13,719 nucleotides of DNA, from positions 5,470 through 19,188 of the forward strand of contig JACQWU010000079.1 of assembly GCA_016209155.1 (NCBI GenBank), written 5' to 3'. Below, in pieces: positions 1,491 through 13,355 of this stretch; the stretch's first letter is position 1, and the number at the start of each line of letters is the position of its first letter. The notes under the pieces were generated by a model that saw only the letters and a program-made list of their open reading frames with translations, was not told the origin of the DNA and made no database searches. The DNA is from Candidatus Desantisiibacteriota bacterium. GTDB taxonomy: Bacteria > JACRDZ01. Both the position numbers and the translations under genes were made by a program.

Positions 1491-2453
1491 TTATTTATTC
1501 CGAATATATTCCTGATCAGAATGACATCCAACATGGCACTTACCGCCATCGGAAGTTTTATAGAAGTCTATTGTGTAGTCATATTCCCCGAATTTACGGC
1601 GTCTTCGGATGAGCTTATTTTGATCAGAGCCATGAGGATCATGACATGCCAGACAATTTTTCCCGGAAAGAGTTTTTTTGTTGACATGCGCAAAATGCAG
1701 GTTTCTTTTTCCGCTTCTGAAACCTGTAGCATTGGTGGTTACCTGTTCAGTGGCAAGACGATAATCGTGGCAGATAAAACAGAATTCGAATGCTTTTAAA
1801 GTGAATACATTCAGATGTTTGTCCGAAAGATTTCCGCGTAAAAAGTATCTATATTCATCTGAACCGTGAGGATCGTGACAGTTAGAGCAATGCCCTTCAT
1901 TTAGTACAGGGTGCCATTTTGGATTTTGTTTAAAAAAATCTTTGAATTTTATATGACAGCTCATGCAAAGTTCTTTAGTCTCTTTTCTAAGCTGATATTG
2001 ATAATCTGTTCCATGAGGACTATGACATGCAGTACAGCGCCCTTCCTCCACCGGAGGATGAGCGAATTTTTTTCCATTTTTTTTACTATGGCAGGCATAA
2101 CATAATTTTGCATCTTCCGGATCGGTACGTAAATTATATTTATAAGGAGCACGATGAGCATTATGGCATCCGCAGTCACCTTTTTTTATGGGGAGGTGCA
2201 TCCAATTCCCCTCAAAAATTTCAGAATGACATATTTTACATAAAACCTGCTTGGGACGTTTTAATATGGCATTAGCTTCAGGATCAGCTGTATGCGCACT
2301 GTGACAATCCAGACATACCTGTTTTTTTACAGGAGTATGCATAACATTCCCTTTTTCAAGTTCATTTCCATCTTCCAGCGCATATATGCTTATAAACCCG
2401 CCCAAAAAACAAAGGATGAGTAAAGAGGCAAAATACCGGGCAAATTTTAACAT
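1491..2453 (-). CDS. Exported multihaem cytochrome c, doubled CXXCH family
   Basis: This 320-residue protein has an N-terminal hydrophobic signal (about 4-24) and then five repeats of a two-motif unit, with His residues before and after each first motif as in the doubled-CXXCH/cytochrome c3-like families. Canonical CXXCH motifs are at 47, 72, 118, 140, 163, 189, 225 and 267. The first site of unit 2 is CGCH (94-97) and the last site of unit 5 is CHVGCH (306-311), so there are eight canonical and two deviant sites. Haem would be attached in the periplasm; the role is electron transfer, partner unknown. ATG at 2453 is preferred to an in-frame TTG at 2459 because AAAGGAGAAG (2470-2461) sits 10 nt from the ATG. 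No other cytochrome or cytochrome-maturation gene is in the window. Confidence 0.9.
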   Translation of the reverse strand: MLKFARYFASLLILCFLGGFISIYALEDGNELEKGNVMHTPVKKQVCLDCHSAHTADPEANAILKRPKQVLCKICHSEIFEGNWMHLPIKKGDCGCHNAHRAPYKYNLRTDPEDAKLCYACHSKKNGKKFAHPPVEEGRCTACHSPHGTDYQYQLRKETKELCMSCHIKFKDFFKQNPKWHPVLNEGHCSNCHDPHGSDEYRYFLRGNLSDKHLNVFTLKAFEFCFICHDYRLATEQVTTNATGFRSGKRNLHFAHVNKKTLSGKNCLACHDPHGSDQNKLIRRRRKFGEYDYTIDFYKTSDGGKCHVGCHSDQEYIRNK

Positions 2454-2504
2454 AAACAAACTTCTCCTTTAAAAATAAGGAAATAAACTTAAAAGATTTG
2501 AAAA

Positions 2505-2534
2505 ATTATATCATGAAATTTTAATCGTATGCAA
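2505..2534 (-). promoter_or_regulatory. Possible promoter for the cytochrome gene
   Basis: On the minus strand TATAAT (2510-2505) is a perfect -10. A weak -35, TTGCAT (2534-2529), lies 18 nt upstream. The leader to the ATG at 2453 would be about 45 nt. The -35 matches consensus only in its TTG half, so this is moderate evidence in an AT-rich region. Confidence 0.45.
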
Positions 2535-2564
2535 CAAAAAAGATTTTGATTATTAATTTCTAAC

Positions 2565-3521: not shown

Positions 3522-5621
3522 ATGACTATATCGGAAGAACGTAAAAATGAAATTATTGCTATTTTATTAATGGCTTTTTCTGTATTTACTTTCTTGAGTC
3601 TATTTTTTTCTCATTTTTCTTCTCAAAATAAAACAATAGGTATATTGGGAAATTTATATGCCGGTATATTACTTTATCTTTTTGGATTCGCCAGTTATTT
3701 TATTGTATTTATTACAGGAATTCTGGGATGGAATAAATTTTCCCGGAGGGATACAGAAAAAGGAATGGTAAGACTTCTTGGCGCACTCCTTTCACTTATC
3801 AGCCTTACAATATTCATAGAAAATTTTTTTCAAAAAAGTAATAAGCATTATGCAGGCGGAATAATAGGCCATTTTTTTCTGAATTCTGTATTGATTAAAT
3901 TTTTTGGGATGGCAGGGGCTTACATAATAATATTTTCTATGCTGTTTATTTCTTTTATTCTAACCACAGAATTTTTATTTTTTCCGTTTTTCACAAAAAT
4001 AAAAACATCTATGCTTAATGTAATTAATTTATCCTATCCGATTAAACAAAAGAAAAAAAAATATACTTATAAAGATAAAGAAAATACTGCGGAGGAAAAA
4101 ATTGAAAAAAATGATAATACTATCGGCTCAGAATCCTCAAACATTAAACCTGTAAGAGAAACGGCAAGAAAAATAGAAAAAGGCAAATACCAGCTGCCTC
4201 CTCTATCTCTGCTTAAGGACCCTGAAGAAAAATGGCAGGATATAAAAGAAAATCTTGAAGAAAACACTAAAATCCTGGAGGAAGCTCTTAAAAGCTTTGA
4301 AGTCGATTCACATGTGGTTAATGTGACAAGAGGACCGGTTATAACAAGATATGAGCTGGAACTTGCAACAGGTGTAAAAGTAAACAAAATCCTTAATCTG
4401 GCTGATGATCTATCCCTTGTCCTCAAAGCCACCCAGGTTAGAATTGCCGCTCCTGTTCCGGGAAAAGGAGTGGTTGGTATTGAAGTACCGAATAAACGAA
4501 AAAGCCATGTCTTTTTAAAAGAGCTTTTGGAAAAAGAAATTGACCTTGAACAAAAAGCCGGTCTTTTGATCGCTCTTGGAAAAAATATCGCGGGGGATCC
4601 GTATTTCGCAGATCTTGCCCGTATGCCTCATCTTCTTATTGCAGGGACAACCGGTTCAGGTAAAAGCGTCTGCGTTAATTCTCTGATAATTAATCTCTTA
4701 ATTAAATATACTCCAGAAGAAGTTAAATTTATCATTGTTGATCCCAAGAGGGTGGAAATGATCGGGTATGACGGTATCCCGCATCTTTTAATACCTGTTA
4801 TTACAGAGGTTAAAAAAGCATCGTTCGCATTAAAATGGGCAGCTAAGGAAATGGAAAACCGCTATGAAATGTTTGCCCGTTCAGGAAGCCGCAATATTGA
4901 AGAATTTAATGCCGCTCCGATTGAACGGAAAAAATATATCGAACAGAATGAAGAAAAAGTTTTACCTGCTTTTATATCTTACATTGTAATTATTATTGAT
5001 GAACTTGCAGATTTAATGATGATAGCAAGAAAAGATGATGAGGATACCATAACCAGATTAGCTCAAATGGCACGTGCAGTCGGGATACATTTAATACTGG
5101 CAACACAGCGGCCGTCACGCATAGCATTTCAGGTATCTTCGCGCGTAGATTCACGTACTATTCTTGATGCTAACGGAGCAGAGAGACTGCTTGGCGAAGG
5201 GGACATGCTTTTTTATTCTGCTTCTACAGGGGCTTTTAAACCTATACGCATTCAGGGAGCTTATATTTCCAATTCGGAGATAGACAAAGTTGTGGAATTT
5301 GTAAAAAGTCAGGGGTCTCCGGTTTATATGGAGGATATTTTAAAAGCAAGTCTTGAAGAAGAAGAAAGCAGTAATGGTTCTTCCGCTTCGGATGATCCCC
5401 TTTTTGAGGATGCGGTAAAAATAATTCAGAATAGCGAAAATGCATCTGTTTCATTGTTGCAAAGAAAACTTAAAATAGGATATAATCGGGCAGCAAGATT
5501 AATGGATATTCTGGAGCAGGAAGGGATAGTCGGTGCTCAGGACGGAAGTAAACCGCGTACTATCCTGGTACGCAGAGACTGGTTTGAACCTGTAGAGAAA
5601 AATGAGGAAGATGAAATATAA
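3522..5621 (+). CDS. ftsK: DNA translocase FtsK/SpoIIIE, with a missing motor segment
   Basis: FtsK pumps chromosomal DNA at the division septum. Visible order in the 699 residues: hydrophobic membrane segments (about 11-30, 44-70, 83-101, 115-158); a short charged linker (about 175-225); the alpha domain; the RecA-like motor with Walker A GTTGSGKS (375-382) and Walker B IIIDELADL (490-498); and a C-terminal winged-helix gamma domain (about 625-685) of the kind that reads orienting DNA motifs. One deviation stands out. At 527-537 the chain reads ATQRPSRIAFQ, whereas the family has 14 residues (VDVITG.IKAN.P plus one) between QRPS and RIAF. The frame is intact, so this is an exact in-frame loss at 5117/5118. 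Whether the motor still works is unclear. The gene lies 11 nt after nusB and overlaps lolA. Confidence 0.95.
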   Translation: MTISEERKNEIIAILLMAFSVFTFLSLFFSHFSSQNKTIGILGNLYAGILLYLFGFASYFIVFITGILGWNKFSRRDTEKGMVRLLGALLSLISLTIFIENFFQKSNKHYAGGIIGHFFLNSVLIKFFGMAGAYIIIFSMLFISFILTTEFLFFPFFTKIKTSMLNVINLSYPIKQKKKKYTYKDKENTAEEKIEKNDNTIGSESSNIKPVRETARKIEKGKYQLPPLSLLKDPEEKWQDIKENLEENTKILEEALKSFEVDSHVVNVTRGPVITRYELELATGVKVNKILNLADDLSLVLKATQVRIAAPVPGKGVVGIEVPNKRKSHVFLKELLEKEIDLEQKAGLLIALGKNIAGDPYFADLARMPHLLIAGTTGSGKSVCVNSLIINLLIKYTPEEVKFIIVDPKRVEMIGYDGIPHLLIPVITEVKKASFALKWAAKEMENRYEMFARSGSRNIEEFNAAPIERKKYIEQNEEKVLPAFISYIVIIIDELADLMMIARKDDEDTITRLAQMARAVGIHLILATQRPSRIAFQVSSRVDSRTILDANGAERLLGEGDMLFYSASTGAFKPIRIQGAYISNSEIDKVVEFVKSQGSPVYMEDILKASLEEEESSNGSSASDDPLFEDAVKIIQNSENASVSLLQRKLKIGYNRAARLMDILEQEGIVGAQDGSKPRTILVRRDWFEPVEKNEEDEI

Positions 5622-8606: not shown

Positions 8607-11357
8607 TCACTGCAGAGATTTTGCGATTTTGTCTATACGATCAACCGCATCATCAAGAAATTTATTGTCAGGATAACTTTCTATAAGTTTTTTATATTCA
8701 TTCAATGCACCGGCTACATCTTTCAATTCTTCATAACATCTGCCAATTTTATATTGGGCATTACCTGAAAATTTCCCTTCACTGTCATACATAACTACTC
8801 TCTTATATTCTTTTATAGCCTGATGATAATCCTTTTTATCGTAATAAAATTCGCCAATCAGATATTGTGCTTCACCTGCAAATGCATGTGTCGGGTATTT
8901 TTCAACTACAATTTTAAATTTTTCAACTGCTTTATCCCGCTCATTAATTCTTTCATATACTAATCCCAATTCAGATAGAGCCGCAACTGTTATTGCCATA
9001 TCAGGATGCTTACTCACAGCTTCATACGCCTCTTTTGCTTTTTTATATTTGATCAGCGAATCCTGAGCAAAATCACTTTGCGGATATTTATCTCTAACTT
9101 CACCAAAAGCTTTCATTGCGTCCTGATATTTTTCCTGATACAGCAGAATATTTGCCAGAAGGTACTGGACTTTTGGCACCTGATCGGAAGACGGATAATT
9201 CTTTAAAAAAAGCTGGTAATTTTTATCTGCCTCATCGTATTTGTTAAGTTTTGTATAAGTCTGTCCCAGTCCAACAAGGGATTTATCCACAAAACCACTG
9301 TTCGAATATTCATTTAATACTTTAGGATATGCTTCAAGAGCACGATCAAAATCTCCTATTATACGGTAGCATTCTCCGGCCTGATAAAGTGATTCGGCGA
9401 CATATTCACTTTTAGGATATTTATTAACCAGCCCTTGAAACCAGACAGCCGCGCGCTTATAGTCTTCTTTCCCAAAATAACTCCACCCAAGCCAGTATTG
9501 AGCATCATCACCAAATTCACTGTCTGAATACTGTTCTGCAACCGTGGCATACGCTTCAGCGGCTTTTTCCAGATTTCCAAGAGCATAATATGCATCCCCG
9601 ACAGTAAATTGGGCTTCAGCAGCCATAGGACTCTGCGGATATTTTTCCATCATTTTATTAAAGCTTGCAATTGACTTTTCATAATTTTTCTGTTCCATAA
9701 ATGCCCATCCCATACCATAATAAGCTTTTTCTGCCAGTTCATTATCCGGATATTTTTCAATGAAAACTTCATATTCCCTGCGGGCATTTTCGAAATCTTT
9801 CTGAGTATAATATATTTCTGCCAGCATGTATTGCGCTTTAATGGAATATTCATCTCTGACGACCACATTCTTAATTATATTATGGTAACTGGTAACAGCA
9901 GAATCATACTTTTTTGCATCAAAATAATTCTGAGCTATAAAAAACTGCGCAGAATTTGCAACTTTACTTTTTGGATAACGCTCCACAAGCTCCTTATAAG
10001 TATTAATAGATTCGGAATTTCTCCCCTGATCCATATAAATTTTTGCAATTCTGTCCATTGCATCGGCAGCAACCATATTCTGGGGATATTTATCTAAAAT
10101 CATTTTATATATTAAATAGGCCTCGTTAGGCTGCTGCAGCTTATAATATGATTCTCCGGCAACAAAAATACTCGATGCTTTAAAATCAATATCAGAAGAA
10201 TATATTTCTACAACTTTAAGATATTCATCAACTGCTTTAGGAAACCATTTTAAATACAGCTCTTTTTCTTTTTCAGATTTATAGTTTGTTGTTTTGGAAA
10301 TAATAGCAGAAAAAGAATCCATTGCTTCTATATAATCTTTCTGTTCAACTGCGATAGTACCGAGTTTGAAGGTTACCTCAGGAATTAATTCACTATTTAC
10401 AAATTCATTAATAATTCTTTTTAAAATACTCCTGGTCTTCTGGAAATTTTTCTTTTTATAATAAATAAGCGCTATTTGGTAATTAGTATCGTCAAGTAAA
10501 TTATTTTTTGATTCACCGTAATTTGCTAAAATTTTATCAAAATTAAATAAAGCCACATCATAATCACCTTTATCAAAATAAATTTTTCCAAGCCAGAATT
10601 GAGCATGTATCGCATATTCACCGGTTGGATATGTCTGAATGACTTTATTGAAAGACTCTCTTGCTTCCTCAAAATTATTATTAGAATAATAAGCAATTCC
10701 CAGATTAAGAGTAGCTTCATCTAATCGATCCCAGCTCGTATATTCATTTATTAAATTTTTATAAGTACGGATAGCTTCTCTGAATTTATTATCATGGAAA
10801 TAAGTATCCGCCATTTTAAAATCTCCTTGCGGAGCATATTTACTGCTTGGAAATTTAACCGAAATTTTATAATATGAATCAGCTGCTTTTTCATATTCTT
10901 TATTTAAAAAATAAATATCACCAATATGCAGTTGTGCTTCAATCCCCTCATCGGCAAGCGGGAAATTCTGCGTTAAATATATAAATCCCTCCATGGCCGA
11001 CACATAATCTTTTTTTTGAAGATGTATATTCGCAAGGGATGAATATGTTTTCCGTGCTATTTCTACATACTGAGAATAATTATTTAGAATATCTTTGTAA
11101 ATAGAGATTGCCTTTTCCAACTCATTTTTATATTTATAGCAATCTGCCTGATAAAGTAAAACGTAGGGAATATTTTTATCTTTTGGAAAATCTTCAATAA
11201 ATTTATTTATTTCCTGTAAAGCCAGATCATATTTTTTATCCTCAAAAAATTCTTTTATTGTTTTATATATTTGATCGGAAGTAATATCTGCAAAAATAAT
11301 TTGAGGGATTAAAATAATTAAAATTAAAAAATATTTTATTAACCTTTTTATTTTCAT
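8607..11357 (-). CDS. Exported protein built of about 22 tetratricopeptide repeats
   Basis: This 916-residue protein has a signal peptide (MKIKRLIKY, hydrophobic to about 22, probable cleavage after IFA). Nearly all the rest is TPR-like helical repeats about 36-38 residues long, the longer type seen in BamD/CpoB (YbgF) proteins. Each unit has the pattern A.y.lG..y....y..A...y..v...YP.S; I count about 22, with a longer non-standard stretch near residues 335-370 and another near 745-765. No enzymatic domain is seen. Such proteins act as periplasmic scaffolds that bind peptides or other proteins. It is the last gene of the exbB-exbD-tonB operon, so a role with that energised complex is likely but inferred. 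A gene symbol is not justified. AGGA about 11 nt before the ATG is a modest ribosome site. Confidence 0.88.
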   Translation of the reverse strand: MKIKRLIKYFLILIILIPQIIFADITSDQIYKTIKEFFEDKKYDLALQEINKFIEDFPKDKNIPYVLLYQADCYKYKNELEKAISIYKDILNNYSQYVEIARKTYSSLANIHLQKKDYVSAMEGFIYLTQNFPLADEGIEAQLHIGDIYFLNKEYEKAADSYYKISVKFPSSKYAPQGDFKMADTYFHDNKFREAIRTYKNLINEYTSWDRLDEATLNLGIAYYSNNNFEEARESFNKVIQTYPTGEYAIHAQFWLGKIYFDKGDYDVALFNFDKILANYGESKNNLLDDTNYQIALIYYKKKNFQKTRSILKRIINEFVNSELIPEVTFKLGTIAVEQKDYIEAMDSFSAIISKTTNYKSEKEKELYLKWFPKAVDEYLKVVEIYSSDIDFKASSIFVAGESYYKLQQPNEAYLIYKMILDKYPQNMVAADAMDRIAKIYMDQGRNSESINTYKELVERYPKSKVANSAQFFIAQNYFDAKKYDSAVTSYHNIIKNVVVRDEYSIKAQYMLAEIYYTQKDFENARREYEVFIEKYPDNELAEKAYYGMGWAFMEQKNYEKSIASFNKMMEKYPQSPMAAEAQFTVGDAYYALGNLEKAAEAYATVAEQYSDSEFGDDAQYWLGWSYFGKEDYKRAAVWFQGLVNKYPKSEYVAESLYQAGECYRIIGDFDRALEAYPKVLNEYSNSGFVDKSLVGLGQTYTKLNKYDEADKNYQLFLKNYPSSDQVPKVQYLLANILLYQEKYQDAMKAFGEVRDKYPQSDFAQDSLIKYKKAKEAYEAVSKHPDMAITVAALSELGLVYERINERDKAVEKFKIVVEKYPTHAFAGEAQYLIGEFYYDKKDYHQAIKEYKRVVMYDSEGKFSGNAQYKIGRCYEELKDVAGALNEYKKLIESYPDNKFLDDAVDRIDKIAKSLQ

Positions 11358-12310: not shown

Positions 12311-12745
12311 TTATTCAATATTACTAGTATTTGCATCAAGCAAAGCGGCAAAACCTATATTAGTTAAACCGGATTTTTTACATAAACCCATAACTTTTAT
12401 CACTGTCCCGTGACTGACGCGTTTATCCGCTTTTATAATTATAACTTCATCGGGATTAGAATTTGCAATTTTTTGCAGTTCACTGTCAAGTTCCGGATAA
12501 CTTTTAATTAATCCGTTAAAAACAACTCTATTATCTACTGTAATGTCAATAACATTTTTTTTCTCGCTCTGTTTGGCTGTAACAACTGCTTTTGGAAGCT
12601 GAATTTCAAGTTTATCATCCATTCTTGCCATATCAAATGTTCCTGTTAACATAAAAAAGGATAAAAGCAGAAAGACCATGTCTGTCATTGAAGTAAGCTC
12701 CATATCCACGTCTTCCATACTTCCGCTTCGATTTTTAAACTGCAC
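12311..12745 (-). CDS. exbD: ExbD/TolR-family biopolymer transport protein
   Basis: ExbD and ExbB form the inner-membrane proton channel that powers TonB- or Tol-type systems. The 144-residue protein has a short cytoplasmic N-terminus with the ELTSMTDMVFLLLSFFML pattern: one membrane span carrying the conserved proton-conducting Asp22. The periplasmic domain ends with the family's VIIIKADK and the helix GTVIKVMGLCKKSGL, then a last strand IGFAA. The start is a GTG at 12745, supported by GGGGAG at 12757-12752 six nt upstream. It overlaps the end of exbB by 11 nt, which implies coupled translation and equal dosing. ExbD and TolR are not separable by sequence alone; the adjoining tonB favours the Exb name. 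Confidence 0.93.
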   Translation of the reverse strand: MQFKNRSGSMEDVDMELTSMTDMVFLLLSFFMLTGTFDMARMDDKLEIQLPKAVVTAKQSEKKNVIDITVDNRVVFNGLIKSYPELDSELQKIANSNPDEVIIIKADKRVSHGTVIKVMGLCKKSGLTNIGFAALLDANTSNIE

Positions 12746-13355
12746 CTTGCTCTCCCCTTGCGCTCAGCTCAGCGACAATATCCAATGATATTTCCTGAAG
12801 CTGTAGTATTATAGTGTCAACTCTGCCTTTAAAAATCTGATAAATAAACATTAATGGGACAGCCACTAAAAGACCATAAGCAGTAGTAATTAAGGCTTCG
12901 GCAATACCGGCAGAAATCAAGTCCGGACGGGAAGAACCCATAGTGGCAATGGTCTGAAAAGAAGCTATCATTCCTGTAACAGTTCCCAAAAAACCAAGCA
13001 TAGGCGCCATAGTAATAGCGGATCTAAGTATACCAAAATTAGTTGAAAGATAAGCTATTTCCAATGATCCGGCAGATTCAAGCGCGCGCTCAACTTCGCT
13101 TACCCCTTGATTATGTTTTAATAATCCTGCTTTTAGTATTCTGGCTATTGGAAAATTCTTTCCTTCACATAGCGCAATTGCTTTTGTAATATTTCCGGCA
13201 GGTATTTCCGCTCTGATTGCTTCAACAAAATCAGGAGGGATCATTTTTTTCACCCTTAGTTTAAATCCGCGTTCAAAACAAACTCCAAATCCTACTATAG
13301 AACTAAATAAAATACCCCACATCATTGATCCGCCTTTATCAAAATATTCAAACAT
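12735..13355 (-). CDS. exbB: ExbB/TolQ/MotA-family proton channel protein
   Basis: As read from ATG 13355 the protein has 206 residues with three membrane spans (about 12-29, 107-133, 150-175). Family hallmarks are the GG-MMWGIL-S opening before span 1 with FERGFKL after it, the APMLGFLGTVTGMI segment (117-130) with pore Thr residues, and EALITTAYGLLVAVP (153-167). With ExbD it forms the proton-driven motor of the TonB system. The start is uncertain. An Ala/Glu/Lys-rich linker ending GYTTL is encoded in frame just upstream, back to a TAA at 13442-13440, and a good ribosome site with ATG 13529 lies before that. No other start codon occurs between the TAA and 13355, so this is the only uninterrupted start, with only a weak distant AGGG before it. 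Confidence 0.92.
   Translation of the reverse strand: MFEYFDKGGSMMWGILFSSIVGFGVCFERGFKLRVKKMIPPDFVEAIRAEIPAGNITKAIALCEGKNFPIARILKAGLLKHNQGVSEVERALESAGSLEIAYLSTNFGILRSAITMAPMLGFLGTVTGMIASFQTIATMGSSRPDLISAGIAEALITTAYGLLVAVPLMFIYQIFKGRVDTIILQLQEISLDIVAELSARGEQGAV

Follow-up and report, generated by a model that had tools for sequence, protein, structure and literature searches.

The ftsK gene of the window, the whole stretch of 13,719 nucleotides analyzed here, lacks 42 nt in its assembled sequence, an in-frame loss that removes the distal half of the DNA-gripping loop II from the FtsK motor. Among the sequences examined, the deletion is private to one draft genome. We estimate a probability of roughly 85% that it is an isolated lesion in an ordinary ftsK gene, rather than a trait of the lineage or a variant by design.

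The junction and the lost half of loop II

By homology and architecture, the FtsK gene is an ordinary one. Its product matches the Pfam domains FtsK_4TM, FtsK_alpha, FtsK_SpoIIIE, and FtsK_gamma, each over the cut-off; the 4TM, alpha, RecA-like beta, and gamma architecture of an FtsK/SpoIIIE DNA translocase is thus present by homology. The features discussed below are collected in Table 1.

Table 1. Position of ftsK, the deletion junction, and adjoining features in the window
Feature	Position	Strand	Remarks
ftsK	3522..5621	+	699 aa; 4TM membrane, alpha, RecA-like beta, and gamma (winged-helix) domains
TQRPS codons	5103..5117	+	Retained: T-Q of the phosphosensor, and R632 and S634 (P. aeruginosa numbering) in the proximal half of loop II
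CCGTCA, sole remaining copy of presumed direct repeat	5112..5117	+	In-register counterparts in L005/L006
Deletion junction	5117..5118	+	42 nt (14 codons) absent, frame kept; VDVITGLIKANFPS in nearest relatives
RIAFQV strand and loop I	5118..5155	+	Abuts QRPS directly; R at the K657 position, R661 kept; local order lost in the model

Residues 527-537 of the product read ATQRPSRIAFQ, with A527 at the start, Q537 at the end, and S532 directly followed by R533; the DNA at the junction is CAG CGG CCG TCA / CGC ATA GCA TTT. Alignment with the FtsK of Pseudomonas aeruginosa (2iut) and Escherichia coli (2ius) leaves a single clean gap of 14 residues at this point, where VDVITGLIKANIPT stands in those proteins. 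The sequence-only reading had described a loss of 42 nt at 5117/5118 with the frame kept, and the size, frame, and position were all borne out by the open reading frame and the FtsK alignments. A misread frame or a masked base was ruled out as the cause: the window contains no N, and the 699-aa frame is open. In an alignment of 27 sequences, the window FtsK departs from the others at 10 of the 96 columns on which 25 or more of the remaining 26 agree, and nine of these 10 belong to the lost segment. Judged by this alignment and by the 57 relatives described below, the 14-residue gap is neither chance nor ordinary variation.

The rest of the motor is well preserved. Walker A (GTTGSGKS), Walker B (IIIIDELAD), the arginine finger (ARA), and the ATQ phosphosensor are kept, as are 86 of the 87 near-invariant columns outside the lost segment, which argues that the motor has undergone no long relaxed decay. 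The only other oddity is a private insertion of two residues about 30 residues downstream (about 5220-5232), where the window FtsK reads LFYSASTGAFKP versus LFSPPGASKP; no other aligned relative has this insertion. Apart from it, the earlier description of a normal motor holds.

When the P. aeruginosa numbering is anchored at R632 in QRPS and at K657 and R661 in loop I, the lost residues correspond to V635-T648 of that FtsK. In translocating FtsK, one DNA strand is held by loop II, which uses R632 and K643 together with S634, V635, and G640, whereas K657 and R661 of loop I hold the other (PMC7321959). Molecular dynamics connect R632 of loop II with the TQ phosphosensor (PMC9410874). The window FtsK retains R632 and S634 of loop II, the arginine finger R620, and loop I, which has arginine at both the K657 and R661 positions by alignment, in a region of low model confidence. 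Missing are V635, G640, and K643, which belong to the distal part of loop II, and all residues from there to the next strand. The segment had been placed near DNA-facing loops; more exactly, it is the distal half of the DNA-gripping loop II itself (PMC7321959). A complete loop II (R632, S634, V635, G640, and K643) is a feature of the active dsDNA motor. With V635-T648 absent, the window FtsK should not, on its sequence, be classed as an active translocase.

AlphaFold2 models were made of the window motor and, as a control, of the intact motor of the relative L005, using the same 27 sequences for each. The control model has a strand (300-306), a helix (316-321), and a second strand (324-327), with pLDDT of about 85-93; the loop I helix (333-340) is likewise of high confidence. 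In the window model, strand 301-307 runs into a short strand (313-315) without an intervening helix, and pLDDT drops to 44-61 across about residues 311-340. The best structural match was FtsK in both cases (window: Z 44.9, rmsd 2.0, 375 aligned; control: Z 54.1, rmsd 1.7, 385 aligned). Because the helix connecting two strands of the RecA-like core is gone, the short motor probably folds or grips less well; low confidence is not proof of misfolding, however, and AlphaFold2 responds weakly to small changes. With both the distal part of loop II and the connecting helix lost, we infer that the short motor is probably unable to grip or translocate DNA.

Distribution of the segment and the direct repeat

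FtsK sequences were drawn from the genomes of 60 relatives and from a large genome collection. Every one of the 57 relatives whose sequence can be read through the site (L005-L061) has the segment, at unchanged length. These include two genomes of the same phylum, L005 and L006, which belong to another family and are the nearest relatives compared (58% identical over the motor). A short form shared by close relatives, which the sequence-only reading had named as evidence against a recent deletion, was seen in 0 of these 57. In a third genome of the phylum (L062, genome G002), the segment is readable as far as KANF (..LIKANFCC), where the contig ends; the remainder of this ftsK was not found in the same assembly.

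The short junction was written as a degenerate DNA pattern and searched for in 386 genomes, with a pattern for the intact form as the denominator. The intact form was matched in 298 genomes, the window's genome not among them. The short junction was matched in three, and within FtsK only in the window's genome; in the other two (G045 and G385), the matches lie outside FtsK and were rejected. The exact short junction had no match in viral contigs, where two matches to the pattern were attributed to chance, one having a stop in the motif and the other lying in a frame of 43 residues. A second ftsK elsewhere in the genome, a check proposed from the outset, was not found in the 79%-complete assembly: it contains one FtsK_SpoIIIE (PF01580) match over the cut-off, and the DNA of the lost segment, with one mismatch allowed, matched nowhere in it.

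In both L005 and L006, CCG TCT or CCG TCC precedes the segment and CCG TCA ends it, in register. The relatives also have the flank PSRIAFQVSS, in agreement with the expectation that the lost segment ends in Pro-Ser. On its + strand, the 19-kb scaffold has a single CCGTCA. The proposed loss between short direct repeats therefore finds its counterpart, CCGTC(T/C)...CCGTCA, in the two nearest relatives, from which the window's own repeat is reconstructed; slippage between the repeats and their exact length (5 or 6 nt) are likewise what we infer from these relatives. In the ancestral ftsK, the CCGTC/CCGTCA copies would have encoded the two Pro-Ser pairs that bound the segment. Slippage or template switching would then have removed one copy together with the 36 nt separating the two; this would have happened in the cell, or else during library preparation or assembly. 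The resulting junction would be in frame, and its product would keep Walker A, Walker B, the phosphosensor, the arginine finger, and loop I. As repeats of 5-6 nt lie in register in both nearest relatives, slippage would account for the deletion.

Origin of the lesion: data, population, or function

Because the other landmarks of the motor are kept (86 of 87 columns), the lesion is, on this evidence, either recent or in the data; an intact remainder would, however, also be expected of a functional protein. It is nearly an even chance that the genome is intact and that the 42 nt dropped out of the consensus through slippage in a PCR or library molecule, or through a faulty join where coverage was low. 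Several properties of the assembly agree with this. A run of 133 N lies at scaffold 5337-5469, just before the window start; it breaks the frame of a comF-like phosphoribosyltransferase and is either a gap in the scaffold or sequence that was withheld. The assembly has a single detected gapA (GAPDH), on the same scaffold and upstream of the window (1543-2538, - strand). Its frame contains a TGA after residue 25, at scaffold 2463, whereas the three relatives of the phylum have an open frame there. This gapA is a pseudogene or contains a consensus error. No in-frame stop is reported in the genome's listed ABC_tran and GTP_EFTU matches, which makes the gapA stop unusual and two lesions on one scaffold suspicious. 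Recoding of TGA is unlikely as an explanation of the gapA stop, since those listed matches have no in-frame TGA and TGA terminates two ORFs in the window. The N run and the gapA stop thus raise the odds of sequence error. The contig of L062 ends within the same segment, indicating that assemblies can break there. Loss of the FtsK motor is costly in the bacteria that have been studied, and a null consensus therefore has a low prior.

However, the neighboring genes pgk, ribH, and mnmE align to solved homologs without such gaps. A six-base overlap is also too short for k-mer assembly to make the junction without junction-bearing reads, and cannot by itself mislead an ordinary assembler of this kind. 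Deletion-bearing molecules therefore probably existed, in cells or in the library.

A real and recent deletion in the sampled population, inactivating the FtsK motor and leaving the division-important membrane domain intact, is an only slightly less probable origin, which we hold tentatively. Slippage deletions between repeats of 5-8 nt are a common class of mutation, and such a repeat stands at both ends of the segment in L005 and L006. Because the frame is kept, the membrane and gamma domains would still be made. In E. coli, the N-terminal domain of FtsK is needed for division and the C-terminal motor acts in chromosome unlinking (PMC3870252). Nevertheless, a null allele at consensus frequency would need to have arisen recently and to be tolerated. 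The genome also still has a gene for a tyrosine recombinase (289 aa, possibly XerC/D), and the FtsK-Xer pathway is therefore probably still used.

The short FtsK could instead be functional, provided that R632, S634, and loop I are enough and that the core can do without the crossover helix. It is the sole FtsK found in the genome, its frame and 86 of 87 other near-invariant columns are kept, and the private downstream insertion perhaps helps the core; yet no length change occurs at this site in the 57 readable relatives, the core has lost its connecting helix, and confidence in the model falls steeply around the site, so that this is very unlikely. Less probable still is a working motor that uses proximal loop II only, with the conserved VDVITGLIKAN dispensable in some lineage.

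The isolated lesion would matter in either of its forms. A real deletion would be a natural knock-out of one DNA-gripping loop, in an uncultured bacterium for which no other FtsK was detected; this would open the question of how chromosome dimers are resolved in such a cell, or whether part of loop II is dispensable. If it is an artifact, it is a warning that in-frame losses between tiny repeats can slip through draft genomes, unnoticed because no stop or frameshift flags them.

Gene neighborhood and comparison with known systems

The gene order around ftsK is ribH-nusB-ftsK-lolA-rodZ-mnmE. Divergent from these genes is a putative multiheme cytochrome (1491-2459, - strand) with several doubled CXXCH motifs and a weak likeness to outer-membrane cytochromes of the MtrC/MtrF type. 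A 916-aa protein with many TPR repeats (8607-11357, - strand) adjoins exbB/exbD-like genes (12311-13355).

The window FtsK resembles the FtsK of P. aeruginosa (2iut, 6t8b) and E. coli (2ius) in domain order, Walker A and B, R620, and TQ, and also in R632 and S634 of loop II, R661 of loop I, and the gamma domain. It differs from them in the absence of V635-T648, which includes G640, K643, and the following helix, and in the replacement of K657 by Arg. With the FtsK of L005 and L006 it shares the QRPS and PSRIAFQVSS flanks and the CCGTCA codons at the 3' end of the segment, whereas those proteins carry VDVITGLIKANFPS and are without the two-residue insertion downstream. Nothing useful turned up in the literature on similar deletions between short repeats in assembled genomes. 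In replication-slippage deletions between short direct repeats, one copy and the intervening DNA are likewise lost, although in the present case the repeat is reconstructed from the sequences of relatives. In sum, the short form looks like an isolated deletion of this known class, or a sequence error, and not like a new kind of motor.
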